From Lyngbya sp. HA4199-MV5 (GTDB lineage Bacteria; Cyanobacteriota; Cyanobacteriia; Leptolyngbyales; Leptolyngbyaceae), in assembly GCA_019359375.1 (NCBI GenBank), contig JAHHHL010000020.1:1-64000 (forward strand): DNA of 64,000 bases. Direction: 5' to 3'. The position numbers and the translations under genes are program-made. Below the pieces are notes generated by a model. That model had not been told where the DNA came from. It saw only the letters and a program-made list of their open reading frames with translations, and ran no database searches. Of the stretch, positions 4,472 to 22,186 are shown piece by piece; the first letter of the stretch is position 1; every line of letters begins with the position of its first letter.

Positions 4472-7400
4472 TTATGCCATGCGAGATTCTAGATTTGTTT
4501 TAATCGCCGCTAAAAACTCTTGTTCTAAATAAGGCTTTGTAAAGTAAGCCGCTGCGCCTAACTGCATGGCTAGCCAGCGGTGTTTTTCATTGCTGCGAGA
4601 AGTCAGCATCATGATTGGAATTTTGACAATTTGAGGATCTTGACGGCGATAGCTAAGAAATTCAAAGCCGTTCATGTTAGGCATTTCAATATCACAGATG
4701 ACGAGATCCACCGCTGAACGCTGGCACTGGTCGATCGCTTCTTGCCCATCACGCGCCTGTAAAACTCGGTAGCCTGCTCTTTCCAGCGATAGTGCTAAGG
4801 TTCGTCGTAAGGTGACGGCATCGTCCACAACTAGAATCGTCGTTGTTTGAATCGTCGCAATCATTGGCGCAGGCTTGCGACTGGAGGGTAAACCGTGGAT
4901 GCCTGGAAAGCGTTGTGATCCACCTGTGAAAGCGCTTTCAGCTGCCTTTTGCTCTCGCTCAAACGATAGCAAGGCACTGCTATCAATCACAGGAATCAGG
5001 CTTCCATCTCCCAAACTTGTACAGCCGTAAAGATAACTGGGAGGAGCAATGACAGCACCAAAGGATTTGATCACCAACTCCTGCTCTGTGATGAGTTGGT
5101 CAACCTCAACAGCAAACATTTGTTCTTGCTGTCGTAATACCAGCATGGGTGCTGTTCCTTTAGGCGTACCAACTGCGGACAGCGACTTGCTGATAGGCGC
5201 TTCGGGTAGGGGGCAGGCATAGCTTAAAAGGTCGGCAAGGCGATAGGCAGGAATAATTTGCTCTCGCCAATATAAAAGTTGTTGGTCTCCTGATAGCCGC
5301 ATTTGGCTGGGTTGAGGGTTGATAATTTCTTCAACGCTATCTACGGGTAAAGCAAGAGTGGTAGAGCCAACCGTGCAAATCACTAATTTAGTGTTCGTCA
5401 GCGTTAAGGGCAACCGCAGTGTAAAAGTTGCACCCTGCCGGGGTGATGATGTAACGGCAACCGTGCCCTTCATTGATTGCAGTTGCGATCGCACCACATC
5501 AAGCCCAATTCCTCGTCCAGACAATTCACTGACCTGTTGCGCGGTAGAAAATCCCGGCTCGAAAATGAGTTCAAAGAGCTGTGCTGGAGAAGCTGTCAGC
5601 AATTGCTCGGCTGAAAACCAACCGAGTTCAAAGGCACGACTACGAATGCGATCCAGGTTGAGTCCCTGCCCATCATCTTTAATCTCAATGATGGTTTGAT
5701 TGCCCTTGTAATACGCCCGAATTTCAATTTGACCATCAGTTGGTTTACCCAATTGCGATCGCACAGAGGAGGCTTCAATCCCGTGATCAAACGCATTGCG
5801 AAGCAGGTGCAGCAGTGGATCGTAGAGCTTTTCTAAAATGGCGCGATCGACCAGTAAACTGGTGCCCGTTAGCTTCAAACTCACTGGCTTGTGATAGGTA
5901 GTAGACAGATCGCGCAACACGCGAGGAAACCGATTCAGCACTTCCCCTAGCGGTATCATGCGTGCCTGAGTCAATTCATTGCCAAGTCCCGATAGCATGT
6001 GTCGCTGTTGGTCGAGCAAGCGATCGGACTGTCTGGCATAGAGCGTGACATCATCAACCGATTCGTCTAGCTGTACAAAGTTCTCAAGAATTTCTTGTAG
6101 CTGGGCGTGCAGAACTCCATAGCTATCCATCTCAAGCGAATCAAACCCAGCGGCTGAGCTAAATGATCCATCATTGGTGGTGCTAATTGGTTGGCTACCT
6201 GCTAGCGAACCGCCGCCATTTTCTATGAAGGCTGGGGTTGGCTTCAAGGGGCTATTCGAGCCCTGTGCGGAGTGTTGACGTTCTGGTGCCACCAGCATCT
6301 GGTCTAAGGATTCTCGCAAATGGCTCACCATATCTTCAAAGCGAGAAAACCGCCTCAGCAACTCGCGCAAGACACTCTGAAGCTGCTCGTTTTGCAGCGA
6401 GAGTCCATTGCGATTGATGGTGAGTTCACCCACAAGATTACTCATGCGCTCAAGTCGGTCTGAGTCAACCCGAACAGTGAGATTTGGCGTGCCCCGTTCT
6501 AGCTGACGAAATGGAGTTACCACCTGGTTTGAGCGGCGAACCGACTGGTGATGTGTCTGGCTAAGCTGCAACGCCCCTGGTTGACCGAGTGCAGCGGTGA
6601 CTAAGCTGCCTGGTTTAATGAATGGCTGTTCATCTACGTTTTGAGTTGCAACCCACTCAGCATCAATCACTTCAGCGAGGGGTGTATCCATTGCATCCAC
6701 ACCCATGGCAGCGGTATCCATGTCAGCCGCGTTCATGGCAATGGCATCCATGTCAGCGGCGATCGTCTGATCGTCGATCGTGGTGTCTAGCGGTTCGGTT
6801 ATAGCAACATCAGGCTTCTCTAGCGCGTCTTCTGGGTCGATGGCAAAGGGTTCAAAGATCGGTAGAACGCTAGTTTCCATCAGCTCATCCGGCTCTACCG
6901 CTGTTGGTTCCATCGCTGTTTCGGCGATCGCAGTATCACTAAACAGACCAAACAAACTTTCAAGCTGAGGCATCACCACTTTTAGTTGGTCGGTGGCTTC
7001 AACCTCACTTAATTGGTTGGTTGCTTCAACCTCAGCAAGTGGGACAGCGGTATCCACTTCAAGATAGTCCAGGTCTAAGGTGCTGCTTTTTGGAATGTTG
7101 ACCTTTGGCATGTATGGGTCTGCAATGCTGATGTTGGAAACGCTCACAGTTGAAACATCAGTTACTGAAGCATCTATAAATGAGGGCGGGGTCATTGCAC
7201 TTAAAGCCAACGCCACGAGAGCCGCAGAAGGTTCTAACCCTTTTGTTCGATCGCCCGCCAAAACGGCTTGACGACTGCGCTCCAGGTCAATTAGCGTGAG
7301 TTCTGTAATCTCTAAGGCACGATCGGGGTGAGCATTGAGCGCTTGTTGAGCCGTTTCAGCAATGGTTTTAAACTCTGGCAGGTTGAGTAGCTCGCCAAAC

Positions 7401-7978
7401 CCAATAAACACTTCAATTTGTGCTCGCAGTTCTCCGGCAACTTCATACTTGTGTGGGCGATCCAGCATGGCAGCGAGTCGTTCAAGTCCCTGCGCCACAT
7501 CCACCTCAAAAATGGATGTCACCATATCCACGCCAAGTTCGGCAGAACTGGGTAAATATGTCTCGGTCTGAAGCAATGCTTCGCCGCAGCGGTTTTCAAT
7601 GTGCGTGAAGATGGGATCGGCGATCGCCAGGGCTTCTGGGTTGAAAGCCCCGGTGGTAATCTGTTCCATCAACGGTAGCCGCAAACAGTCATAGGCTCGC
7701 AGCAGATCATTTTCCAGGGCTGTATCAATTTCCAAGGCATCGCTGTAGAGCGCCTTGAGGATGTTTTCGAGGCGGTGTGCCAGGGTTGCGATCGCGTCTA
7801 ACCCAACGCTGGCAGCGCCTCCTTTCAGTGAGTGAGCCGCCCGCATCAAATTGTGTACAGTGGCAGTATTGCGCTGTTTGAGGGTCAACAAGCCCACTTC
7901 CAGAATTTGCAGCAGTTCGGGTGCTTCTTCTGTAAAAAATTGATAGGCGTGGTCACGGATATCAGAGTTAATGGTCAT
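4472..7978 (-). CDS. CheA-type hybrid histidine kinase/response regulator (PixL/PilL-like)
   Basis: The protein has 1168 residues from the ATG at 7978. A GTG at 8071 would add 31 residues, but MTINSDIRDHAYQFFTEEAP is the usual start in this family. An Hpt domain at the N terminus carries the phosphorylatable His in AHSLKGGAA. A long acidic, low-complexity linker follows, containing near-repeats such as AEVEATNQLSEVEATDQL. Then come the dimerisation segment, an HATPase with HLLRNAFDHGIE and GRGIGLDVV, a CheW-like domain, and a C-terminal receiver with ILVVDD and VICDIEMPN. It is the kinase core of the chemotaxis/phototaxis operon encoded upstream. It receives signals through CheW from the MCPs and passes phosphate to the two receivers encoded at the start of the operon. 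Pix (phototaxis) and Pil (motility) paralogues cannot be separated from sequence alone. Confidence 0.9.
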   Translation of the reverse strand: MTINSDIRDHAYQFFTEEAPELLQILEVGLLTLKQRNTATVHNLMRAAHSLKGGAASVGLDAIATLAHRLENILKALYSDALEIDTALENDLLRAYDCLRLPLMEQITTGAFNPEALAIADPIFTHIENRCGEALLQTETYLPSSAELGVDMVTSIFEVDVAQGLERLAAMLDRPHKYEVAGELRAQIEVFIGFGELLNLPEFKTIAETAQQALNAHPDRALEITELTLIDLERSRQAVLAGDRTKGLEPSAALVALALSAMTPPSFIDASVTDVSTVSVSNISIADPYMPKVNIPKSSTLDLDYLEVDTAVPLAEVEATNQLSEVEATDQLKVVMPQLESLFGLFSDTAIAETAMEPTAVEPDELMETSVLPIFEPFAIDPEDALEKPDVAITEPLDTTIDDQTIAADMDAIAMNAADMDTAAMGVDAMDTPLAEVIDAEWVATQNVDEQPFIKPGSLVTAALGQPGALQLSQTHHQSVRRSNQVVTPFRQLERGTPNLTVRVDSDRLERMSNLVGELTINRNGLSLQNEQLQSVLRELLRRFSRFEDMVSHLRESLDQMLVAPERQHSAQGSNSPLKPTPAFIENGGGSLAGSQPISTTNDGSFSSAAGFDSLEMDSYGVLHAQLQEILENFVQLDESVDDVTLYARQSDRLLDQQRHMLSGLGNELTQARMIPLGEVLNRFPRVLRDLSTTYHKPVSLKLTGTSLLVDRAILEKLYDPLLHLLRNAFDHGIEASSVRSQLGKPTDGQIEIRAYYKGNQTIIEIKDDGQGLNLDRIRSRAFELGWFSAEQLLTASPAQLFELIFEPGFSTAQQVSELSGRGIGLDVVRSQLQSMKGTVAVTSSPRQGATFTLRLPLTLTNTKLVICTVGSTTLALPVDSVEEIINPQPSQMRLSGDQQLLYWREQIIPAYRLADLLSYACPLPEAPISKSLSAVGTPKGTAPMLVLRQQEQMFAVEVDQLITEQELVIKSFGAVIAPPSYLYGCTSLGDGSLIPVIDSSALLSFEREQKAAESAFTGGSQRFPGIHGLPSSRKPAPMIATIQTTTILVVDDAVTLRRTLALSLERAGYRVLQARDGQEAIDQCQRSAVDLVICDIEMPNMNGFEFLSYRRQDPQIVKIPIMMLTSRSNEKHRWLAMQLGAAAYFTKPYLEQEFLAAIKTNLESRMA

Positions 7979-8121
7979 TAGTTTATGGAGGTAGTCCTCA
8001 TTGTTTGGAGGGAGGGTTGATATGGATGTACCAAGACGTGAAATGCCTGTACGGATATTGACTCCCTCCACCCCAAAAAACGCTTTAGTGTGATGACGCT
8101 CAGCTACCTGGTTCCACTGCT

Positions 8122-9525
8122 TTAGCTGACTTCAAAGTCACGTTCCATCGCTTCAATAATCTGTGGCGATCGCCGTTGCAGCCGCGACGACAACCAGGCT
8201 CCAACACCTAGATAAACCAAAAACCCATACGGCAAAAAGTTGTAAGGGAAGGGGGGAATGGGAAAGAAGCTGGCAACAACTGGTGTCATCATAAACAGCA
8301 CAGCAGGCACCGCGATCGCCAGGTCACGAGAACGCAGCCGTTGTTGTCGGTAAAGCTCAAGCGGCGCTGCAATGGAAATCAACACATAGACCAGCAAAAA
8401 GCCATAGGTTGCCAGCGTTCCTAAGTAACCATAGATGTCGAGGATAGGGATCCCAACCAGCGACAAAGAGACTGGCACCAGAAATAAGATGAGTATCGAA
8501 AGAACGACAGCCACATGAGGCGTTTGGTTTTGCGGGTGCGTTGCACCTAATGCCCGGTGCAAAATACGCTGGTAGCCTAGCGAATACATGATGCGTGCGC
8601 CAGCCGTAATACTAGCCAGGGTGCAGGTAAAAAAGCTGAACACAACTCCCACAGAAATCGCCAAGCCCAATAGCTCAACACCCGATAGATTCGCCAAAAT
8701 CTCAAGTGGAATATCCGTTTTGTCCAGAGATGTTCCAGAGCCACGAAGACCGAGTACTTCTGTGTAAGAGACAAGAATGTAAAAGAGTCCTGATAGCACC
8801 GCACTCCATAGCACCGCTCGCGGTACTGACCGATAGGGGCGTTTCACTTCCTCTGCTAAAGTGGTTGCACTTTCAAACCCAACGTAACTAAAAATTGCTA
8901 GCACCAGACCCAATCGCAAGCCTTCAGGGGAGACATCTTGAAGTAGTAGCTGCGGTGTGTCGATCGTAAACCCATGCCCAACCAACACAATCACCGTCAA
9001 AAGTAGAATTAAGCTAATCGACGTTAACTCAAGCAACAGCATGAGCACGGTTGATAGTTGGATATCAGTGTAGGCGTAAAACCCGACAATGAGGGTACAA
9101 ATGGCGTAGAGAAGGAGTGAAGGAGCCTGAAACCCAAATTCACGCAGCACCACATTTGAGTAAATGACAAAACCTGACATCACCGTCATGCCTGTAAAAA
9201 GATAGGCTGCAATCAGCGCCCAGCCGGAGACAATGCCAGCGGTAGAACCCAAATTTTGACCAATGGCACCATAGAGGGTACCTGGAAGCGATAGGCGGCG
9301 GGCAAAGTGATTGATATTAAGGCTAACTAAAGCCAGCCCCGTCGTTGCAATCAGAAAGGTTAACCATGTGCCATTGCCTGCGCTGGCATACACCAACCCA
9401 ATGTTGAGCGAGGGCATCGCCACAGGAGCGATATTGCCAACCGATTGAGCAAAGGTTTCGGGAAAGGAAAGACAATCTGCGCGTAACCCAGAAGCACGTT
9501 GCTTTGCATTTGAAAACGTTGTCAT
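8122..9525 (-). CDS. APC family amino acid permease
   Basis: The 467-residue carrier has about 12 membrane segments. APC hallmarks include SVGNIAPVAMPSLNIGLVYA in the first helix region and FSYVGFESATTLAEEVKRP in the middle. The ATG at 9525 has AAGGG about 6 bases upstream; a TTG at 9531 is an alternative. It sits inside the chemotaxis operon, 63 bases after the MCP gene and before cheA, which is unusual. The receptor just upstream has a Cache domain of the kind that often binds amino acids, so sensing and uptake of the same ligand is a reasonable inference. It could also be an unrelated inserted gene. Confidence 0.85.
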   Translation of the reverse strand: MTTFSNAKQRASGLRADCLSFPETFAQSVGNIAPVAMPSLNIGLVYASAGNGTWLTFLIATTGLALVSLNINHFARRLSLPGTLYGAIGQNLGSTAGIVSGWALIAAYLFTGMTVMSGFVIYSNVVLREFGFQAPSLLLYAICTLIVGFYAYTDIQLSTVLMLLLELTSISLILLLTVIVLVGHGFTIDTPQLLLQDVSPEGLRLGLVLAIFSYVGFESATTLAEEVKRPYRSVPRAVLWSAVLSGLFYILVSYTEVLGLRGSGTSLDKTDIPLEILANLSGVELLGLAISVGVVFSFFTCTLASITAGARIMYSLGYQRILHRALGATHPQNQTPHVAVVLSILILFLVPVSLSLVGIPILDIYGYLGTLATYGFLLVYVLISIAAPLELYRQQRLRSRDLAIAVPAVLFMMTPVVASFFPIPPFPYNFLPYGFLVYLGVGAWLSSRLQRRSPQIIEAMERDFEVS

Positions 9526-9588
9526 GTTCAACCCTTTGCATGTGTGTTTTCCATGGTTTTTGCATGACCCTGATCTTTGGAAGAGGCA

Positions 9589-12459
9589 TCACACTTTAAA
9601 CTGACCCACTTCTGCCTGGAGCGTTTGTGCCACTTTGCGGAGTTGCTCAAATGACGACGACACTGCGCCTGCTTCTGTTGAAGTTCTGTTGGCGATCGCA
9701 GCCACGTCTTTCATGGTTTGCGTCACTTCTGCCGAAGCGTGCGACTGCACAACCGTTGCCTGCGCGATCGCCCTCACCAATCCGCTAATTTGAGCGCTCG
9801 CTTCGGTAATTTTATTCAAGCTCTGGCGGGTCTCCGTCACAAGCTGTGTTCCAATCACCACCTGCTCTGTGCCCGATTCCATCGCTGTCACCACTTCATT
9901 GGTTTCAGCCTGAATGCTAATGACCAGCTTTCTGATTTCTTCGGTTGCTTCTGCCGATTGCCTTGCCAGTGTGCGTACTTCGTCAGCGACTACCGCAAAG
10001 CCTCTGCCTTCTTCGCCAGCACGCGAAGCTTCGATCGCTGCATTCAGCGCCAACATATTGGTTTGAGCCGCAAAGCTACCAATCAAATCCACAACAGTAG
10101 AAATCTTTTGAGACGATTCTCCCAAATGTTTCACTTTTTTGGCGGTGTCTGCAACTGTGGCTCGAATCGCTAGAATGCCATCAACCGTGCGGTTCATAGC
10201 CGCATCCCCTTCTTCCACACTTTGCGCCGCCTGCTGCACAGCCATTTCTGCTTGTTCGGTGTTGTCTGCTACCTGGCGCACTACCGTTGCCGTTTCTTCA
10301 GCAACCCTTAACGCTGTAGTAATTGCCGCCGCCTGCCGCAACGCTTCCTCTGAGAGGGATTGAACGGAAAGTTGGCTCAAGGCAGTGGTGGTAGATACTT
10401 CATTCGCCGCCTCCTGCACCTGTCGCACAATTTTACGTAAGCTTTCTACCGTGGCATTGTAAGAGTCGGCGATCGTGCCGATTTCGTCTGCCGTCACTTT
10501 TGCCTGCGTGGTTAAATCACCTTTACTAATGGGATCAACTTCCAGCAGCAGCTCTAACGCTCGCTTTTGCAAACTTTCTTTGAGGTCACGCTGTTCTTCT
10601 GCCAGGTCAATCGTCTGTTCTAGCAGTTCCACCCGGTAGATAGAAAGCGCCAACTCATCCCCCAAGCGTTGCAGAAACTTGATTTCAGACTCCTGCCAGT
10701 CATGAGTAGTGGAGCAATAATGGGCAATCAGCAAGCCGTAAAGCTGACCTGCACCCGCAATCGGCGTAATCAAACTTGCTTTTACCTGTAGGCGTTTCAG
10801 CAAGTTGAGATGTTCTGGATGGAATGCCGTACTCGCGACATCATTAACAGCCACTACACGACCCGCTTGATAAGCAGCGATCAAATCGGCTGGAATACAG
10901 GAGTCACTAACATTCTCATCGAGAGCCGTTGCCCATTGGCTATCAACCGACTCTGCGACCACCCCAGTATGGGACGTTTTCTGAAAGCGATAGATGACCA
11001 CGCGATCGACGTTAAATAGCTGCCGTGCGCCTGCAACGACCTGTTCAAAAACGGGGAGTAGATCAGCCGACCGTACCACATTGGATCCTTTCGCCATTGT
11101 GAGTAAACGCTCTTGTGCGGCTTCAAACGCTTGCAAATTCAGCGAGTTTTGAAGCTGGCTTGCCATGCTGTTAATGTTGATGCCCAGCGACGCAATTTCG
11201 TCTTCCCCGTCTACTGCCACACGCGTCGCTAAATCGCCTTGCCCAATTTTTTCCACAGCTTCTGCGGCGGTTAACATAGGACGGGTCGCCCGATTGGCAA
11301 TACCAGTGGCGATCGCCGCCACAATCAACGCGATCGTGCCTGTGCCCAACAATGTTGTTAAGAGCAACTGCCGCTGTAGCACAAAGGCAATGTCTACAGG
11401 GCGGGAGACAAGCAGACCCCACTGGAGATTATAGTTTTTAGCAAGCTCCTGATTGGGTAAATAGGTGATCACCTCTCGGTTCTTGCCAGCGGCACGGGCA
11501 GCGATCGCCGTTTGCTTTTGCTCATTTTGAGTGATGGCGGGAAATTCATCCACTAACTTTTTTTGAATCAAGGCTGGGTCACTAGCGGCAATAATCTGTC
11601 CTCCAGATTCCTTTAAGAAAAAGGCTTCTCCTGGTAACAAATTTTCCCCAAACACGGGTCTAAACACACGTAAGGGAATGCGCGCCTGAATGATAGCAAC
11701 AGTCTTACCCGTTTCACTATCTTTAATAGGAGCAGCCGCAAAAAGACTAAATTCGTTTGAGAAAATAGATGTTTGGGGATAACCCACGATCGGCTTATCC
11801 GCCGTGCGAACAGCCTGAAAATAGTCTCGATCAGCAACTCTGGTCGGTTGAGGATTTTGAGGATTATCTTTTGTTTTCGCCAGAACATTCCCATCCAGAT
11901 CAGTGACTGCAATACTGTCGTAAACCTGTAAATTTCCAATTTTTGAAAAACGAGCATACTGCTCAAGAATTTTTTGCTTCTCGGCTAAAGATGCCGTATA
12001 TCGCAGCTTAGGATTGGCGAAAAGACTCAGTTGAGCAAACGATTGAATATCGCTGTAGCGCTCGGCAATGAAGTTATTCAATTTATCTTCCAGATTGAGC
12101 GCACCCGCTTCTTCCGCCTGGAGAACTTGACGCTGAATGCTTTGGTTCGTGACCAGGTAAGTGGTAGACCCTACCAGCAAAATCGGAAACGTGCCGATCG
12201 TCATCGCAATAAAGACGGCTTTCGTGCGGATACTCAAGCGCTGCCACCAACGGCTCGACCCTGGCTGGGGTGGCTGTAATGGCATCAGCGGTCTTTCCTT
12301 GCGTTCTGGCAAGCGGTCTAGGTCATGCCTTATGGGTTCGATCGACCATTGGGATGAGGCAGCAAGCGCTTGTGTCTTATCCTGATCGATTTGAACGCCA
12401 TCCAACGGTTGAGGCATAAGCCCGCTCTGAGGAGCCGAATTGGGAGACGTATGAGTCAT
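9589..12459 (-). CDS. Methyl-accepting chemotaxis protein (Cache-HAMP-GAF-HAMP-MCP)
   Basis: The protein has 956 residues from the ATG at 12459, which has AAAGG upstream; a TTG at 12528 would extend it. After a cytoplasmic lead there is a membrane helix ([19 protein letters not shown]). Next come an extracytoplasmic Cache-like domain of about 230 residues, a second helix ([19 protein letters not shown]) and HAMP. A GAF domain and a second HAMP-like segment precede the MCP hairpin with [20 protein letters not shown]. The GAF resembles the phototaxis GAFs of the PixJ group. At the position of the canonical chromophore Cys-His it has PEH, so it probably does not bind bilin in the normal way. A DSC tripeptide is present where DXCF would lie. 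It signals to CheA through the CheW encoded next door. Confidence 0.9.
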
Positions 12460-12541
12460 AGGTAAACCTTTAGGGCTGAGTAATCGACGAGTGGATTGAA
12501 ACGTGATTGATTCGTAGCGATGCTGCAAAAGTTACCGTGAC

Positions 12542-13096
12542 TCAGAGCGCGGCGACGCTGGCGATAATGGCTTCTGCTTCTAAAACCGCAAACACCGCAG
12601 CGTCAGTCTTCCACCAATACCCACGCAACAACAGAGCCAGCGCAGATGTCAGTGTGGCAGGAGGTAAGGGTTGAATCACGGCGGGATCACACCACTCAAC
12701 ATCTTCTACCTGATCCACCACCAGCCCCAAGGACGGACTCTCCTGAGTTGCGGCTTTGTCATGCTCCCGCAGCACGACCGCTGTATGGGTAATTCGCATT
12801 TTCTGCTGGTAGTAGGGAGTCAAGCCACACAAATGTCCTAAATCGATCATCCAAAGCACTTCACCACGCCAGTTGTATACCCCCATCACGCAGGCAGGCA
12901 TATCGGGAATGGGCACAATCTGCCCCACTGGGATCGTGAGCACTTCGCCTACTGCCTGAATCGGTAACAGGACTTTTGTATCGGGTACAAGATGCAGTCG
13001 TAGAAATTGTTCTTCGGCGCGATTACGGCTCACCAGTGCCTGATCAGCTATCTGCGTTGGTAAGGCATCAAAATTTGGAGTTGATCCGTCAGGCAT
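12542..13096 (-). CDS. CheW-like coupling protein (PixI/PilI-like)
   Basis: The 184-residue cytoplasmic adaptor has a CheW fold: LVPDTKVLLPIQAVGEVLTI, then PDMPACVMGVYNWRGEVLWM, then GLVVDQVEDVEW. The GVYNWRGEVLWMIDL stretch is the conserved CheW core that docks on the kinase and receptor. It lies between the CheY-like gene (17 bases upstream) and the MCP gene, all on the same strand, so it is almost certainly cotranscribed with both. Confidence 0.9.
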   Translation of the reverse strand: MPDGSTPNFDALPTQIADQALVSRNRAEEQFLRLHLVPDTKVLLPIQAVGEVLTIPVGQIVPIPDMPACVMGVYNWRGEVLWMIDLGHLCGLTPYYQQKMRITHTAVVLREHDKAATQESPSLGLVVDQVEDVEWCDPAVIQPLPPATLTSALALLLRGYWWKTDAAVFAVLEAEAIIASVAAL

Positions 13097-13112
13097 GGTG
13101 ATACGTCCAGTC

Positions 13113-13478
13113 CTAATGTTTAATGAATTGCTTAATCGTGTTCACAAACTCTTCCTGGTTAATCGGCTTGGCAATATAAGCATCGGCACCTTGTTTCATG
13201 CCCCAAAAACGATCCATCTCGCTGCCTTTGGTTGAGCACATGACGATCGGAATCTGATTAGTAGCCACTTCAGCTTTAAGCCGCCGACACACCTCAAACC
13301 CGCTACAGCCAGGTAGCACCACGTCTAAAACAATGACATCAGGCTTTTGTTTCATCACCGTCGCAAGGGCTTCTTCTCCACTTTGAGCAATGAGGACATT
13401 GATGCCTGCCTGCTGCAAGCAGCCAATGAGAATTTGCATCTCCGTCAACGAATCTTCAACGACTAAAGCTGTACTCAC
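13113..13478 (-). CDS. CheY-like response regulator (PixH/PilH-like)
   Basis: This single receiver domain has 121 residues. The phosphoacceptor Asp is in VIVLDVVLPG, acidic residues lie in VVEDS, and the Lys is in AYIAKPINQEEF. I chose GTG 13478, giving MSTALVVEDS, because AAGGT lies 8 bases upstream and family members start there; the longer frame begins with TTG codons. As second gene of the operon it is the likely soluble output or phosphate sink for the CheA-like kinase. Confidence 0.88.
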   Translation of the reverse strand: MSTALVVEDSLTEMQILIGCLQQAGINVLIAQSGEEALATVMKQKPDVIVLDVVLPGCSGFEVCRRLKAEVATNQIPIVMCSTKGSEMDRFWGMKQGADAYIAKPINQEEFVNTIKQFIKH

Positions 13479-13515
13479 TGTCTGTACCTTATGAATAAAC
13501 AACAAAAATGATTCA

Positions 13516-14679
13516 TTAACGAGCCGTGATGGAAAGATTAGTCGCGTTAGGCTCTAAATGTTTACGAATCTCACCTAACACCGTTTCAGCATTCAGGGGT
13601 TTGCTGAGGAACCCGGATGCTTTGGCAAAGCTAGCTCGGAGGCGATTGGAATAGCCGTCGTTCCCCGTTAAGATCACGATCGGTGTTTGACGAAAACTCG
13701 AAAGCTTGCGTAACTGCTCGCACACTTCATACCCATTTGCGTCTGGCATCACCAGGTCTAAAAAGATCAAATCCGGCTTCCGTGCTAACAACACACTGAT
13801 GGCTCGCAACGCGCTCTCTATGCCCAAAAACTGATAGCCAGCCGATGTTAGCAGTGTTTCCATCGTATTGCGGACTAACGCGCTATCATCGACACAAGCA
13901 ATCAACGCCTTGGGCGGAAAGACTGGCGGCAGTGTTTTACTTGTATGACGAGGATAAATCAGGGCGGGTAAATCAGGAATGTTAATCAGCTCTACCCAGC
14001 CCAATTGCATAAACGGTAAGAGTAACGCCGTTACCTCTACCACATCACGCTGCATTTGCGTCGCCAGATCATACAAAGTCTGTTGCCCATTGAGTCGTTG
14101 CACCAACATTTGATAGAACTGTGGTGAACACTGTTCTTGTAATGCGTCCGGTTGCTTGATAATGGGTGCTTTGTGCGGCGAGTAATCCGCCAGCCTAGCA
14201 TCCTGCCACCGTTGCCAGCGCCATTGAGTTTTAGTAATCACATCTTCAACCTGAATGCAGCCAACTTGCGTTATGTCTAAAGCATCATGCCGAATTTGCT
14301 TGCTGATAGACCCTGCTTGCAACACATCAAACAACAGGTCAATCAAGGTTGAAAAAACCATGTTAGCCGCTTGTTCCGGGGTGATTCTTTGTCTTGCGAC
14401 CCATAGGTTTAACAGCGTGTACTCCCAACCGATGGTGGAAGTTGCCGAGCCAACGCTCGCTAAATCAGCCTGCCACCCTAAGCGATGGGTGGGTAAGCGA
14501 GGACAGTGGATCGCTAAATTTCTACGCCAGCGACGCATGGGATGCACTCCACCTGTAGCATAGACAAGATTGCCCTTCAGTAGATGGAATATCCACCGCT
14601 GACCATTTCCATCACTCCACTCAAGTTGACCACTAAACTGAAGCGGTTTCAAATCTCTGAGAAATTGAGCGTGTTCCAA
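13516..14679 (-). CDS. PatA/PixG-like response regulator (PATAN/DUF4388 + REC)
   Basis: The 387-residue protein has an N-terminal PATAN/DUF4388-type domain (FSGQLEWSDGNGQRWIFHL, LKGNLVYATGG). A helical middle follows, then a C-terminal receiver with IACVDDSALVR, LIFLDLVMPDANGYEV and a Lys in FLSKPL. The start is TTG at 14679, supported by AGGGG 9 bases upstream. Domain order and position, first in an operon before cheY and cheW, match PixG/PilG. It probably directs the pilus motor in twitching motility or phototaxis. Confidence 0.88.
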   Translation of the reverse strand: MEHAQFLRDLKPLQFSGQLEWSDGNGQRWIFHLLKGNLVYATGGVHPMRRWRRNLAIHCPRLPTHRLGWQADLASVGSATSTIGWEYTLLNLWVARQRITPEQAANMVFSTLIDLLFDVLQAGSISKQIRHDALDITQVGCIQVEDVITKTQWRWQRWQDARLADYSPHKAPIIKQPDALQEQCSPQFYQMLVQRLNGQQTLYDLATQMQRDVVEVTALLLPFMQLGWVELINIPDLPALIYPRHTSKTLPPVFPPKALIACVDDSALVRNTMETLLTSAGYQFLGIESALRAISVLLARKPDLIFLDLVMPDANGYEVCEQLRKLSSFRQTPIVILTGNDGYSNRLRASFAKASGFLSKPLNAETVLGEIRKHLEPNATNLSITAR

Positions 14680-16093
14680 CCTAATAGACCCCTTTCTTAG
14701 ACGTTCATCAGCGGTCTACACAAAAAATAAACAAGCTACAGCAATTTTCAAGCAAGTGAAGTACAGATCCTTGCAGGGAGTCAAGGAGTCAAGAAAGTAA
14801 GGTGTACCTCAGCAAATTGGAAAACGCTGTATGTTAAGACGATCGCCTGCAATGCGTACCATTCACTGGTACAGACTACAAGGCTGCTTCGCGAGATCAG
14901 TATAGTTTTCGCAACGAATAAACCAAATGGCTGAGCGCGGTTTAACCGATCGCCTTCAGCCATCATCAGCGTCAACTTCATCTACCCGCACGATCGTGCT
15001 GAGAGATGAGGTGCGGTAAGAAACAACCAAGGCTCAGGCTTGAGCCATTCACCACCACGTATGCTTAACACCCGACGACGATCGTCCTGAACGCTGCTCT
15101 GGTAGATGTAAAAAGTCTTTCGTTAGACCTTCACCTGGATCGTGAAGCGGTTGATGCAGAAGCCCTTACGTACAACATCGTTGGAGTGCCATCTATTCCA
15201 GTCTATACTCTAACCTCGGCTAGTATTTGACAATTAAGGTTGCAGCAGTTTACTGAATCTTTATAGTATGGAAATCGATTCCTTGGCATTGATCAGGAGA
15301 AATTTAGCATTGTTTTTGCGGGTCAAATATTGTTAATGTTTTATTCGAGTCTTTTTCTGGGGGAACGGAAGACGATCGCCTTACGCGTCATAAACCTGTA
15401 AGCGCTGTATGCACGTCATCGCGTGATGGTTAAACCATTTAAGTAAGATGGTCGCTGCACCCATAATTTAGTCTTGAAAATGAATTTTTTTGATGAGCAG
15501 ATTACATTAATAAAGATTCTGTGAAGGTAATGTTGCAAGATTCCTAACCAGCAAGGCTTCGCTGTAAGCTCGGACACAAAGCGTCATACAAATCTCAGCG
15601 ATAGTCAAGCTTTTTAGTGATGATTCCGACCGTGATGATTTCAGTAGCAAGAGGTTTTGCTGACGACTTGCTCATGACGCAACCCCAGGGTGATTTAGTG
15701 TTCGCTTCAAGCTTGGGTGTTCTCCCGGTGGTCTTTAAGGTACTGCTCAAATCAGCTTTTTCCAGCCATCTGCTCTGGTAGGCGATCGTCTTACGATGTA
15801 AGGCAACCGCGGTTTTGGAAGACGATCCGAGTGTTTGTCTTGCTGCTATAGCCACGGCGCTGGCGATCGTTGCCAGGTGGTGTCGTTGCACCTCACGAAT
15901 TTTTTCTATATTAAGGGATGGAAATTAAATAACTTCAATTACCTCAGTCTTTAATTGTACGGGCGCGGCAGGCGGCAGATCACTCTGGACGAAGGTGAGG
16001 ACTTTCTACCGCATGCCACGCCCCTACGAATAGGATGACACCTTAATAAATCCACAATCCTAAGTAATTTATCAAAAACCGCTGAGTGAACCG
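14680..16093. other. 1.4-kb gene-free region between divergent signalling genes
   Basis: I see no convincing gene here. Two small minus-strand frames (14781-14981 and 15595-15891) lack ribosome sites and recognisable motifs. The region presumably carries the promoters of the minus-strand chemotaxis operon and of the plus-strand MCP. TTGACA occurs at 15227-15232 without a well-spaced -10. A degraded family-B end (AAATCCACAATCCTAAG) sits near 16048-16065, and a MITE follows at once. Confidence 0.5.
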
Positions 16094-16224
16094 CTAGGGT
16101 GCGTCATCAACTCAGCTCCAAAACCGTATGGCATCAGCATGGTCGCGCCCGTCCAAACACACCAGGTTAGGGGCTGAAACCTCTACTGCAAGAAATATGT
16201 AGCCGTCATTGATGACAGCCCTTA
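16094..16224. mobile_element. IS5-like MITE, family A, copy 2 (diverged)
   Basis: It has the same architecture as the 2386 copy: left end CTAGGGTGCGTCATCAA, right end TTGATGACAGCCC, and the shared internal CACCAGGTTAGGGGCTG core. The right CTAG has drifted to CTTA. Divergence from the other copies is visibly greater, so this is an older insertion. It lies about 90 bases before the MCP start and may affect its promoter region. Confidence 0.8.
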
Positions 16225-16316
16225 CTATTCGCTTTGCTAGCATGAACGTTGCTCGATAACGGTGCTCATCTACGAACTCCATAATGACTATTTATCTGAT
16301 CTGAGACTCCGTTCTT

Positions 16317-19043
16317 ATGACGAATCCATTACCCAATCAAGTGCAACCCGTGTTTGAAGCCGGTGAGCCGACCCAATCAATCGCTTCTGAAGCATCACCC
16401 ACTCTGAGTGCCGACCAACAGAAGACAGTCGATCGCCAGTCGTCATCTTCCCTGGGGCAGTGGTTTAGTGCTCAGGCAGTGCAGCACAAATACGTTCTTG
16501 GTTGGTTCACGTCAGGCATCTTGTCGGTTGCAAGCATTGCCGGTGCCGGAGTATGGTTCACAACCGCTGCGAATCAGGTGCCAGTGACCCATCAACCTGG
16601 AACCGGGCAAACGCAGACCGAAGCGTCTCAACGAGCGGCACTGGAGCAACGTTTCTGGCAGCAGCAATTATTGGCGATCGCCCTGGTGCTGGCAACCAAT
16701 ACGGGCGTGATGCTGTTGCTTTATCGCATGATTGCAAAACCCGTCAAACGACTTCAGCAAGATACCCGAATGTTTTCTCTGGGCGATCGTGAGATTCGAG
16801 CGGAGGTCAAAGCGGCTGATGAAATCGGCAAAATTGCTCAAACCTTCAATCAGCTAGCAGACAACACGGTCGCAGTAGAAACGTTGCTGTCGAAACAAAC
16901 CCGCCAGCAGGAAAGTAGGGTGAAGGAAACTCAACTCATCCGTCAGCTCGCTGGTGCGCGTGTGCAGACAGGGCAAGATTTAGAGGCGGTCTTCGAGCAA
17001 GCGGTTCAAGGTGCAAAGGTCACTTTAAACGTCGATCGCGTCGTGATTTATCGCTTCAACCCTGATTGGAGTGGCTTGGTCGCAGCGGAAGCCGTCGCGC
17101 TGGGAAACCCATCTGCCCTGGAAATTACCCTTGAAGATGCCTATAGCGGGGATGACGTTATTGCCGCGTATCGGCAAGGGCAGGTTGTAGCAACGGATGA
17201 TGTGTTGAAAGCTGGGTTCCATCCCGCGCACTTAACGCTGCTGAAACGGCTGCATGTCAAAGCCAGTCTGGTTGCGCCTCTTTTGCAGGACGATCGGCTT
17301 TACGGCTTGCTCATTGCGCATCAGTGCGCGGCACCCTATCAGTGGCATTCAGACGAAATTGACGTTCTTAAGGCACTGGCTAGTCAACTTGGATTGGTTT
17401 GTGATCAATGGGCGTTTGCAACTCAGGAAAAGGCTGAAACAGACCGTGTCCAGCAGCTTTATCAGCAAACAAAGATTGAAGTTGAACGAGCACAAGCGCT
17501 TTATCACATGAGCTTGCGCCTGCGGAGTGCCTTTACCCACCAGGAAATTTACAACACAGCGGTTCGTGGCGTACAGGAGCTGTTGAGCACCGATCGTGCG
17601 ATCGTCTATTTGTTTGATCCAATGTGGAAAGGCTCGATCGTTGCAGAAGTTGTGAATCCAGAATACCCCAGTGCGCTTGGCACCGCGATCGCCGACCCCT
17701 GTTTTGCTGAACGGTACGTGGAAAAGTACCAACAAGGGCGCGTGCAGGCATGGGAAGATATTGCCAAGGCTGGACTGACCCAATGCCATTTGGCTCAATT
17801 GGAACCCTTCAAGATCAAAGCCAGCCTGGTGGCACCCATTCTGACGACCAATACGCTGCATGCCTTACTGGTCACGCATCAGTGCTCTCATACGCGATCG
17901 TGGGAAGCAGCAGAAATCGCCTGCTTTCAAGAGACTGCGGTTCAAATGGGGTTGGCGCTCGACCTGGCGGATGTGTTACACCAGTTGGAACGATCGCGCC
18001 AGCAGGCCGAACAGTTGGCAGACGAGCAGCGCCACCAGCGAGAAGCATTGCAGAGTCAACTGGTGAGCCTACTCGACCAGGTAGAAGGTGTCGCCTCTGG
18101 CAACCTGACGGTGCGAGCAGAGGTAACCGATGGTGAACTGGGCACCGTGGCTGATTTCTTTAATGCGCTGGTCGAAAGTCTGCGCCAAATTGTATTGCAG
18201 GTGAAGCGATCGACCACGCAAGTCAACACGGCGCTGGGCGAAAGTGAACTAACCATTCAGCAACTGGTAGCGGAAGCGCTGCAACAGTCAGAAGACATTA
18301 CCCAAACGCTTAGCTCCGTTGATCAAATGACGACTTCCATCCAGGCGGTGGCAGAAAGCTCTCGTCAGGCGGCGGCTGTCACCCACACGGCTTCATCCAC
18401 CGCAGAGGCAAGTCAGGTGGCGATCGATTTCACCGTTCACAGCATGTTTGAACTCCGCGAAACCATGTCTGAAACGGCTCAGAAAATGAAACGACTCGGC
18501 GAATCGTCGCAGGCAATTTCAAAAGTGATCTCTTTAATCAATCAAATTGCGCTCAAAACCAACATGCTGGCGCTCAATGCGGGGATTGAAGCCGCACGCA
18601 CGGGTGAAAATGGCGCAGGTTTCGCAGTCGTTGCCGAAGAAGTGGGAGAACTCGCCATTCAGTCTGCCTCTGCTACAAAAGAAATTGAACAACTGGTCGA
18701 AGACATTCAGCGAGGCACGCGTCAGGTACTGGAAGTGATGGAAAAAGGCACCACGCAAATGGTGAAAGGCACGCGACTGGTGGAAGATGCCAAGCAAAAC
18801 CTGGGACAACTGCGCCAGTTATCACAACAAACCGATCAGCTTGTGCAATCCATTTCAGAAGCGACGATCGCCCAGACGCAAATTTCCCAAACCGTGGTGC
18901 AGTTGATGCAAAAACTCGCCCACCGATCGCAACAAACAGCCAGCATCTCGCAACACGTCACCGAATCGCTGCAAGACACGGTTGACATTGCTCAGGCATT
19001 AGAACTATCGGTCGGTGCGTTCACGGTCGAAGAGTTGAATTAG
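16317..19043 (+). CDS. pixJ: MCP with tandem GAF domains, one a DXCF cyanobacteriochrome (PixJ-like)
   Basis: The 908-residue protein has two membrane helices (about residues 60-83 and 116-136), a HAMP domain, GAF1 (about 220-365), GAF2 (about 400-560), a second HAMP-like region and an MCP hairpin. GAF2 has ADPCF with Cys462 and TQCH with Cys490. This is the two-cysteine signature of DXCF cyanobacteriochromes, which bind phycocyanobilin/phycoviolobilin and sense blue/green light in PixJ. GAF1 has PAH in place of the Cys-His and is probably not a chromophore site. In the MCP tip the usual AAIEASR is AGIEAART. It is divergent from, and likely partner to, the CheA operon, acting as the light input for phototaxis. 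Confidence 0.88.
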
Positions 19044-19403: not shown

Positions 19404-20762
19404 ATGCCATCCATTAGCTTGCAAGCGGCTCTGCAAAGTCTTCCAGCAGATGCTCAAGAAGCAGTTGTTGATCATCAATTTATTCAGCCCGCTTTCCTGG
19501 CAGCATTAGGCTTTAAGACAGGCGAAGTTTATCCTCAATACGACACTGGAAAAGGGCTAGTTGATTATGCTGCTCGTAAGGATTATGAGGGTGATGTCTT
19601 TGTTAATACCAGATCTAATCCTTATCTCTTAATCGAACTTAAAGGGCAAGATATCAATTTATGTGAGGGTTCAGCAGGTTACAGGAGAACAGTTGAGCAG
19701 CTAAAGGGCTATTTGTTAGCCAGTAATTGTCACGCTGCACAATGGGGCATCCTTACTAACTCTGTCCACGTTCAGCTTTTCCGTAAACACGGTAAGGTGG
19801 TTCACCCTGCAACAGCGTGTCTTGAAATTACTCCAGAGAACGCAGATAAACTCATTGCCTCACTGCGCCGACAGATTGAACAGCCCGTTAAGGCGTTAAC
19901 AGTTGCGGTCTACAACAATAAAGGTGGCGTGGGCAAAACAACCACAACGGTTAACCTTGCTGCTATTCTTACCCTATTGGGCAAGAAGGTCTTGGTTGTA
20001 GATTGCGATCCTAATCAGCAGGATCTCACCAGTTCTTTAGGGCTGGCAGCAAATGAAGGTGATGTTTCTGAGGCGCTAATGACTCGAAATGGCGACCTTA
20101 AACCAGCGATTAAGCCATTTACAGTAACATCCAGGGCATTAGGTAAAGCGTTCTCGTTTGATGTCATTCCCGCCGATAAACGATTCGTTGAGGACGTTGA
20201 TCAGGAGAGGAAGCAACTTGATGAAGTCTCACTTCGTCAAAAATTGAAGCCTGAATACTTGCGTCGCAGCTTAGAGCCACTCAAGTCTGAATATGATTAT
20301 ATTTTGGTTGACGCACCACCCAACTGGCGCATTTTCAGTCAACTAGCTGTCTATGCTGCTGATGTGGTTTTGATGCCAACAAAGCACAATAACCTGTTCT
20401 CTCTAGAGAATGCTGCACTTGCGATGAAGAAATTCATTCCTGAAGCCCAAAAGCAGCGAGGCGATGCTACTCCGATTGCACTACCCATCTTCTTCAACGG
20501 CGAGAAGATAACCCCATACCAATTGCTTGCTGCTCAAAAAGAGATCAACAACATCATCAGGCAAGCTCAAAGAGATGGATTTAATCTCTTGCCGTACTTC
20601 TACCCTCGGCATACTCGTGCCAAAGAGAACCTTCATGTCTTTGAAGTACCCAGCTACGCAAACATTGCTAACGCTGCATTCTCACGTATTCCTGCGGCGT
20701 ATCGCGATAAAACTGCTTATGACTATTATTCTGCTCTAGCAAAGGAGTACTTTCTACAATGA
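19404..20762 (+). CDS. PD-(D/E)XK-like (HsdR_N-type) domain fused to ParA ATPase
   Basis: The protein has 452 residues. Residues 1-160 resemble the N-terminal nuclease-like domain of type I restriction HsdR. VDYAARKDYEGDVF is followed by YLLIELKGQ, where D...E-x-K can form a PD-(D/E)XK site, and then by EQLKGYLLASNCHAAQWGIL. Residues 165-450 are a ParA/MinD-type ATPase: deviant Walker A NNKGGVGKTTTT, VVDCDPNQQDLT, and DYILVDAPPNW as Walker B. The following gene overlaps by four bases (ATGA), so the two form a translationally coupled pair. The pairing resembles partition systems, but fusion to a nuclease-like domain hints at defence or element maintenance. Catalytic activity is not provable from sequence. 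Confidence 0.8.
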   Translation: MPSISLQAALQSLPADAQEAVVDHQFIQPAFLAALGFKTGEVYPQYDTGKGLVDYAARKDYEGDVFVNTRSNPYLLIELKGQDINLCEGSAGYRRTVEQLKGYLLASNCHAAQWGILTNSVHVQLFRKHGKVVHPATACLEITPENADKLIASLRRQIEQPVKALTVAVYNNKGGVGKTTTTVNLAAILTLLGKKVLVVDCDPNQQDLTSSLGLAANEGDVSEALMTRNGDLKPAIKPFTVTSRALGKAFSFDVIPADKRFVEDVDQERKQLDEVSLRQKLKPEYLRRSLEPLKSEYDYILVDAPPNWRIFSQLAVYAADVVLMPTKHNNLFSLENAALAMKKFIPEAQKQRGDATPIALPIFFNGEKITPYQLLAAQKEINNIIRQAQRDGFNLLPYFYPRHTRAKENLHVFEVPSYANIANAAFSRIPAAYRDKTAYDYYSALAKEYFLQ

Positions 20763-21442
20763 GCGACTTTACCGATGTTGGGAATCTCATGCATTTGTAT
20801 CTAGATGAAATTGATCCGGGGGAAGGCACGAATGCACCAGAATTTTTAATTACAGCAACAGCCAAGCAACTGAATGAAGCAGGTGGTCGTAACTGGCTGC
20901 CTGTCATTGTGAGAGAAACAGATAAAGATCAGTATGAAGTCATTGGCAATACCTTTATCTATGCGGTGGCAGAAGCGGCAGGCTTAGAGCGAGTTTGGTG
21001 CATTATTGCCGACTCTAGCGAGGAAACCGCTAACATTGCTAAGCTGCTTGCAGGTGAAGCCATTCCTAAAGTGAATCTCTCAACCGCTTCTAGAGATGAC
21101 ATTCTGGCAGCACTAGAGTATCTGATTGAACAACCTGCCAGTGCCCTGAAAGGCGTAAAGCCCTCAGTGGCAACCAATCGCATTGAAGAAGCCCCACGTC
21201 AATATTGGAAAACCTTTGATGCGATCGTGGCTCTTAAGTGCGGCATCACCAAAGGCAAGAAACTTGATGCTCTGAAGCAAGTGTTTTATTTAACACCACA
21301 GCCATTGCCTGCGGTGATTAAAGATCCTGCTCTTCTACAGACTCTAACGACAGCAGAATTAAAGGCGATGGCAAAGAAACGGGAACTAGCAGGCTATACC
21401 AAGTTGAAAAAACCTGAATTGGTTGACCTACTAAGTCAGTAA
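20759..21442 (+). CDS. ParB-like protein with C-terminal Rho_N domain
   Basis: The protein has 227 residues. Residues 45-90 (WLPVIVRET, QYEVIGNTFIYAVAEAAGLE, VWCIIAD) resemble the ParB/sulfiredoxin-type N-terminal fold, but the usual G-x-x-R box reads GNTF. The middle is helical and uncharacterised. The last 38 residues (LLQTLTTAELKAMAKK, then YTKLKKPELVDLLS) match the Rho termination factor N-terminal/SAP-like nucleic-acid-binding motif. The start overlaps the ParA-fusion stop. By context it is the partner or DNA adaptor of that ATPase. No obvious parS-like inverted repeats are visible beside it. Confidence 0.7.
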   Translation: MSDFTDVGNLMHLYLDEIDPGEGTNAPEFLITATAKQLNEAGGRNWLPVIVRETDKDQYEVIGNTFIYAVAEAAGLERVWCIIADSSEETANIAKLLAGEAIPKVNLSTASRDDILAALEYLIEQPASALKGVKPSVATNRIEEAPRQYWKTFDAIVALKCGITKGKKLDALKQVFYLTPQPLPAVIKDPALLQTLTTAELKAMAKKRELAGYTKLKKPELVDLLSQ

Positions 21443-21617: not shown

Positions 21618-21833
21618 ATGAACACTCAACTGGTCGAATCCTTAGTTCAAGTGATTTTTTCATTGTCATCCGACGAGCAGGTATTACTTGAAGACAGGCT
21701 TTTTGGAAATTTGCCTTACCCCTCCACTCAAGAACTGACTCACCTGACTGAGCAGGGGCAAGTCTTTGAGTTTCTGAAGGATGAACCCGACCTTTATACA
21801 CTCGATGATGGCGAACCAGTTGAATGGCACTAA
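21618..21833 (+). CDS. Antitoxin partner of the MazF-like toxin
   Basis: The 71-residue acidic protein (DEQVLLEDRLF, LDDGEPVEW) begins MNTQLVESLVQVIFSLSSDE. Its last ten bases overlap the start of the PemK/MazF-type toxin gene, the normal antitoxin-first arrangement. No DNA-binding fold is recognisable at this length, so function is inferred from position, size and charge. Confidence 0.7.
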   Translation: MNTQLVESLVQVIFSLSSDEQVLLEDRLFGNLPYPSTQELTHLTEQGQVFEFLKDEPDLYTLDDGEPVEWH

Positions 21834-22186
21834 ACAAAGGCGATATCGTCCTCGTTGAATTTCCGTTTACAGACCTCAGCCAAACCAAACTGCGTCCTGA
21901 GATCGTCCTTTCGGTCAGTACCCGGTTTGATGAGATTACGCTTTGTTTTGTATCGTCTCAAGCTGTTGATGCTCTGGAGTTAAATGAGTTTGCGCTGAAC
22001 ACAACTGATCCAGAATTCGCCGAAACAGGATTGCGTGTTACCTCAAGAGTTAGGGTAACAAGAATAACAACGCTGAACAGTTTGTTAATCAAAAGACGCT
22101 TGGGTAAGCTGGGTTCTCGGTATACGCAAGCATTGAATGAGTATCTGCTACAAGCTTTTCGATTACAACGTCCTGATGAAGAGTGA
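21824..22186 (+). CDS. PemK/MazF family toxin (endoribonuclease)
   Basis: The 120-residue protein begins MALNKGDIVLVEFPFTDLS, followed by TKLRPEIVLSVS. That is the conserved start of PemK/MazF toxins, which cut mRNA at short sequences. The fold-specific K-x-R-P and the downstream TSRVRVTRITTL strand are present and the length is normal, so this toxin looks intact. It is translationally coupled to the small acidic antitoxin upstream. Confidence 0.88.
   Translation: MALNKGDIVLVEFPFTDLSQTKLRPEIVLSVSTRFDEITLCFVSSQAVDALELNEFALNTTDPEFAETGLRVTSRVRVTRITTLNSLLIKRRLGKLGSRYTQALNEYLLQAFRLQRPDEE

Follow-up and report, generated by a model that had tools for sequence, protein, structure and literature searches.

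The gene at 16317-19043 of the window (the whole stretch analyzed, 64,000 nucleotides of contig JAHHHL010000020.1 of Lyngbya sp. HA4199-MV5) is, as judged from its predicted product, an ordinary PixJ-type light-taxis receptor with a putative role in phototaxis. The real twist lies in one of its two GAF domains, which belongs to the DXCIP lineage of cyanobacteriochromes minus the only chromophore-attaching Cys of that lineage, in a gene that has been duplicated. We call the receptor ordinary because a single light-sensing GAF out of two is already published for Synechocystis PixJ1, in which the chromophore is located only at the second GAF (PMC5812497, available part). Taken as a whole, the explanation that we favor, a PixJ receptor that senses light through GAF2 and holds GAF1 as a Cys-less DXCIP spacer following a pixJ duplication, seems probable. 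Coordinates are collected in Table 1.

Table 1. Features of the window concerned with the PixJ-type receptor and the divergent Che operon.
Feature	Position	Strand	Basis
CheA hybrid (Hpt, dimerization, HATPase, CheW, REC), PixL-like	4472..8071	-	
Amino-acid permease within the Che operon	8122..9531	-	
dCache-HAMP-GAF-MCP receptor, GAF with DSCIP...HPEH (Cys codon 10899-10897)	9589..12459	-	
CheW, PixI-like	12542..13096	-	
REC response regulator, PixH-like	13113..13505	-	
PATAN-like (DUF4388, below cut-off) plus REC response regulator, PixG-like	13516..14679	-	
PixJ-type receptor ORF, 908 aa	16317..19043	+	ATG start, no internal stop
Two TM segments of the PixJ-type receptor	near aa 59-84, aa 116-138	+	Read by eye
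HAMP domain, aa 134-184	16716..16868	+	Pfam PF00672
GAF1, aa 210-365, DXCIP-clade GAF without attachment Cys	16944..17411	+	Pfam, tree, model
Tyr276 (TAT) at the DXC-Cys position of GAF1	17142..17144	+	Script check, alignment
Ala304-His305 at the canonical Cys-His position of GAF1	17226..17231	+	Script check
GAF2, aa 400-556, DXCF-type two-Cys cyanobacteriochrome GAF	17514..17984	+	Motifs, tree, TePixJ match
Cys462 codon (DPCF, second Cys; equivalent of TePixJ C494)	17700..17702	+	Script check, 3vv4 alignment
Cys490 codon (TQCH, canonical Cys; equivalent of TePixJ C522)	17784..17786	+	Script check, 3vv4 alignment
MCP signalling domain (MCPsignal), aa 715-869	18459..18923	+	Pfam PF00015

A sequence-only reading had described the product as a tandem-GAF phototaxis-type receptor, and this was supported by Pfam, with two GAF stretches, and by eye for the TM segments, the domains following one another in the order TM-HAMP-GAF1-GAF2-MCP that is proper to the PixJ type. 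Two further marks of this type were present: GAF2 shares a clade with a known PixJ photosensory GAF, that of Thermosynechococcus elongatus PixJ (TePixJ), and genes for PATAN-REC, REC, CheW and CheA lie alongside, adjoining and divergent, as they also do in Stenomitos rutilans. The motifs given in that reading were correct in every detail covered by a script check of the codons. Nothing was found in the window with Rfam, and in the three proteins tested with NCBIfam no model was above the cut-off among the matches listed (the best 25 of 89 for the third protein).

GAF2 contains ADPCF (aa 459-463) and TQCH (aa 488-491), so that it has a Cys in the DXCF motif (C462) and a canonical Cys-His (C490-H491), separated by 28 residues as in TePixJ. 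Both GAFs matched the TePixJ GAF (3vv4) over the whole domain (135 bits and E 3e-38 for GAF2; E 8e-35 for GAF1 by itself), and neither motif is therefore a chance hit. In a tree calculated without the six diagnostic columns, GAF2 grouped with TePixJ in a two-Cys clade (97% support). The domain had been proposed to be of the DXCF blue/green type; the two-Cys DXCF assignment stood, whereas the color cannot be read from two Cys alone, since the partners of blue vary among DXCF domains, with green, teal, yellow or orange photoproducts (PMC5240096, available part). Blue/green is likely, as the best guess offered by a clade that contains TePixJ. The genome has three bilin-reductase genes.

In GAF1, the expected PAH was confirmed at the canonical site (HPAH, aa 302-305, with A304 in the place of Cys), and the DXCF place also was without Cys (D274-A275-Y276-S277). 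The earlier label of an empty GAF was accurate as regards the missing attachment Cys, but the domain is not a generic GAF, since it descends from the DXCIP lineage (99% clade). DXCIP domains are described as having no canonical Cys, attaching the chromophore solely through the Cys in their DXCIP motif, and absorbing green in the dark state (PMC5578081 and PMC6628166, available parts). GAF1 shares with them the clade and the lack of the canonical Cys (A304) and differs in the motif Cys (Tyr276). The possibility that the lone-Cys GAF1 class was undescribed was dropped, as it matches this published lineage in the same parts of the two papers. Tree and alignment point to GAF1 as a descendant of the DXCIP cyanobacteriochromes that has lost its sole Cys. 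With Tyr276 and Ala304 at the two positions it would be unable to attach a bilin in the way its relatives do, and, since the one Cys of its family is lost, light is probably sensed by the second GAF only. The inverse loss was observed in another PixJ-type receptor (L013, 9669-13214), whose second GAF is without both Cys (DPSF, TESY) and whose lone-Cys GAF1 is intact, a mirror image of the window's case.

DXCIP cyanobacteriochromes are reportedly the subject of Fushimi et al., in Biochemistry in 2016. The DXC Cys was kept in 69 of 70 non-redundant GAFs with P-x-H and a non-canonical residue in place of the canonical Cys, window GAF1 being the single exception. Members of this set came from a similarity search with the window protein and from two DNA patterns, one with the Cys fixed (386 cyanobacterial genomes surveyed) and one with the Cys codon open (matches in 65 of 388 genomes); P-x-H was obligatory, and GAFs that lost that too are missed. 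Three GAF1s without either Cys were met in the lone-Cys clade (L109, L249 and L250). The codon-open pattern, with six listed matches left out because their printed letters contain an in-frame stop, gave 61 GAF matches with the Cys, at most three of them from genomes contributed solely by the Cys-fixed pattern, and one without, the window's, after removal of two non-GAF matches. In the fetched loci the same pattern gave 86 distinct DNA matches, 85 of them stop-free: 62 with the Cys and a non-canonical site (one, L172, without a GAF), 21 with two Cys, one with Ser (L157, no GAF) and one with Tyr (the window). Glu or Asp occupied the canonical site in 58 of the 70 class members, and the motif was spelled CIP in 43, CIS in 21, CIG in 4, CFP in 1 and YSG in 1, the last being the window.

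The tree comprised 117 GAFs, with many forks open, and took in 47 of the 70 class members, after thinning at 72% identity and omission of short ones. These formed one clade, window GAF1 included (SH-aLRT 99), separate from that of TePixJ and window GAF2 (97); the clade was equated with DXCIP by its motif and missing canonical Cys, the characterized DXCIP proteins being outside the tree. L109 was an extra row inside the GAF1 clade. The GAF1s of four genomes of genus g8 were two-Cys (G014, G080) or degenerate (G076, G093), and degenerate ones of two genomes of this genus fell in the GAF1 clade on a long branch. At a further locus (L107), three tandem MCP receptors beside CheA (11664-14633, 8678-11611 and 5759-8617) each displayed one lone-Cys GAF and no two-Cys GAF, and that Che operon is apparently served solely by DXCIP-type GAFs.

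A second stand-alone PixJ was found in the genome on contig C86 (68% identity), together with a second complete pix-type operon on contig C24 (three-GAF receptor, CheW, REC, PATAN-REC and CheA; L113). Both GAFs are intact in, among other relatives, the C86 paralogue and the S. rutilans orthologue, whose GAF1 motifs read DACI...HPEH and DGCI...HPEH, respectively; the receptor of the window operon presents DSCI...HPEH. The window PixJ and its S. rutilans partner paired with 100/100 support within a 100/100 group of congeneric PixJ (including the uncultured PMM_0085), and the C86 copy paired with a different S. rutilans copy. Across ten genomes from the genus and family, a copy more than 65% identical to the window PixJ appeared only in S. 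rutilans (G474). The window gene is thus an extra PixJ copy, present, among the same-genus genomes searched, only here and in S. rutilans, and the Cys was lost on the window's branch, since GAF1 of S. rutilans keeps it.

The window receptor and that of S. rutilans were 65% (GAF1), 82% (GAF2) and 93% (MCP region) identical, with pairwise dN/dS of about 0.20, 0.09 and 0.08, respectively, at dS near or above 1. Private changes in GAF1 were balanced (19 in the window vs. 16 in S. rutilans), and relaxed selection as a sign of decay was unsupported in this comparison. At the 25 most conserved columns of the class, GAF1 differed in three, namely the Cys, the following Ile and one Arg. The GAF1 model (pLDDT 89.7, lowest at residues 61-70, the block with the lost motif) superimposed on the TePixJ structure with Z 24.3 and rmsd 1.6 over 150 aligned residues; its input alignment drew 48 sequences from 62 listed GAF1 stretches, and the window itself is among the 62 (L001) and was entered from the window. 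GAF1 is thus less constrained than GAF2 in both species, yet it is not a wreck. Some function beyond spacing is possible, given the lack of fast decay, the dN/dS of about 0.20 and the change of only three of the 25 conserved columns.

As had been stated in the sequence-only reading, the gene is transcribed away from the CheA operon, whose pix-type genes are all on the minus strand, and this gene order is the same in S. rutilans (L009, L195). The GAF of the operon's own receptor has the DXCIP motif, no canonical Cys and a place in the DXCIP clade; this receptor is predicted to be a light sensor and not a blind GAF, because the DSCIP motif is intact and the DXCIP group binds its chromophore by that Cys. 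The permease between the MCP and CheA genes was also kept in several other genomes (L179, L191, L195, L198 and L231). The spacer between pixJ and the operon (about 1.6 kb) had no convincing gene; a small ORF at 15595-15891 (minus strand) is not claimed, as its match in S. rutilans was partial and in two pieces. Two repeats were observed there. A dispersed one of about 130 bases (16092-16227) gave 40 scored genome matches, its own included, from 315 first-look candidates; the remaining matches were 80-85% identical, and single-strand folding of the repeat did not go beyond that of shuffles (z -1.1). The other, of about 95 bases (about 14734-14831), was 93% identical to two places on the contig of the second operon.

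Beyond pixJ, positions 19404-21442 encode a ParA-like ATPase with an N-terminal extension and then a small protein that matches ParB_N and Rho_N weakly, a pair that also adjoins pixJ in S. rutilans (L009). A PemK/MazF-like toxin of a type II toxin-antitoxin system lies at 21824-22186, and a NACHT NTPase with an NNH2 N-terminal domain and HEAT-like repeats at 25483-28365, presumably of a kind known among bacterial STAND/defence proteins.

In the working that we propose, a phycocyanobilin-derived bilin would be carried on C490 of GAF2, and C462 would add to it and then leave in a blue/green-type photocycle, as suggested by TePixJ. The change in GAF2 would pass along the coiled coil to the MCP tip and set the activity of a PixL-type CheA, by analogy with the Pix pathway, where PATAN-REC and REC regulators would steer type IV pili (PMC5812497, available part). 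The CheA addressed is most likely that of the adjoining divergent operon. GAF1, placed between HAMP and GAF2 and hence off the route that a signal from GAF2 would take to the MCP tip, is most likely kept as a folded spacer and dimerization domain. One of two ancestral light channels would have been lost after the lineage-specific duplication of pixJ, the other light channel being supplied, on prediction, by the dCache receptor of the operon with its intact DXCIP GAF.

The window receptor would most likely feed the neighboring CheA, but the genome also holds the second pix-type operon, with its own receptor and another CheA, and the second stand-alone PixJ. The receptor might serve that other operon or both, the divergent operon taking its input chiefly from its own dCache receptor. 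The completeness of the operon on C24, from three-GAF receptor through CheA, agrees with this, as does the finding of no pixJ beside the related operon in five other genomes (L179, L191, L197, L198 and L231; limited stretches, that of L197 short of a permease); the gene order kept with the divergent operon in S. rutilans and the 72-80% identity of parts of the spacer between the two species argue against it, and we consider it fairly unlikely. An error of assembly or sequencing would account for a Cys-less GAF1 in one genome only. One wrong base is insufficient, however, as several neighboring residues were changed with the frame intact (D-A-Y-S-G in the window vs. D-G-C-I-S in S. rutilans, both followed by DD), and an Arg at a conserved site was also altered to Gln, which makes such an error scarcely credible.

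GAF1 could alternatively be a second sensor, with a bilin or some other small ligand bound non-covalently. The preserved fold, the purifying selection on the domain and the retention of the pocket Asp, Tyr and His (TePixJ D492, Y503 and H523 by alignment) are consistent with this, but both attachment positions are gone, the class-conserved Arg at the position of TePixJ R507 is the one replaced by Gln, and GAF1 has Val, where 89% of the class has Leu, at the position of TePixJ W499, a residue in contact with the B-ring propionate (PMC6955287). We regard it as distinctly unlikely. A color split after duplication, in which the window pixJ lost its green DXCIP channel, the dCache receptor kept one and GAF1 turned to a non-covalent input, is more doubtful still.

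Three known systems come closest to the receptor and its GAFs. Synechocystis PixJ1 (TaxD1, sll0041) has likewise TM, two GAFs and an MCP output and, in the available part of its description, a chromophore on the second GAF alone, as predicted here; in contrast, its gene lies within the tax1 cluster with Che genes, whereas the window gene is divergent from them. TePixJ (PDB 3vv4, 4glq and 6p58) shares the DXCF GAF, the two Cys with their spacing and the MCP output, but a TePixJ locus (L236, GAF 100% identical) gave one GAF match only vs. two in the window receptor, and its H498-W499 pair corresponds to Arg466-Tyr467 in GAF2. GAF1 resembles the DXCIP cyanobacteriochromes in its clade and its want of a canonical Cys, and departs from them at their defining single Cys, a motif kept by the GAF of the operon receptor.

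The window offers a well-placed case of a photosensor that lost its chromophore site while the rest of the receptor stayed intact. Relatives that still bear the Cys exist in the same genome (the C86 paralogue) and in a sister species, and these would provide a natural comparison for the contribution of the DXCIP GAF to PixJ signalling. The operon receptor, for its part, looks blind when only the canonical Cys is searched for, yet it is probably a photoreceptor.
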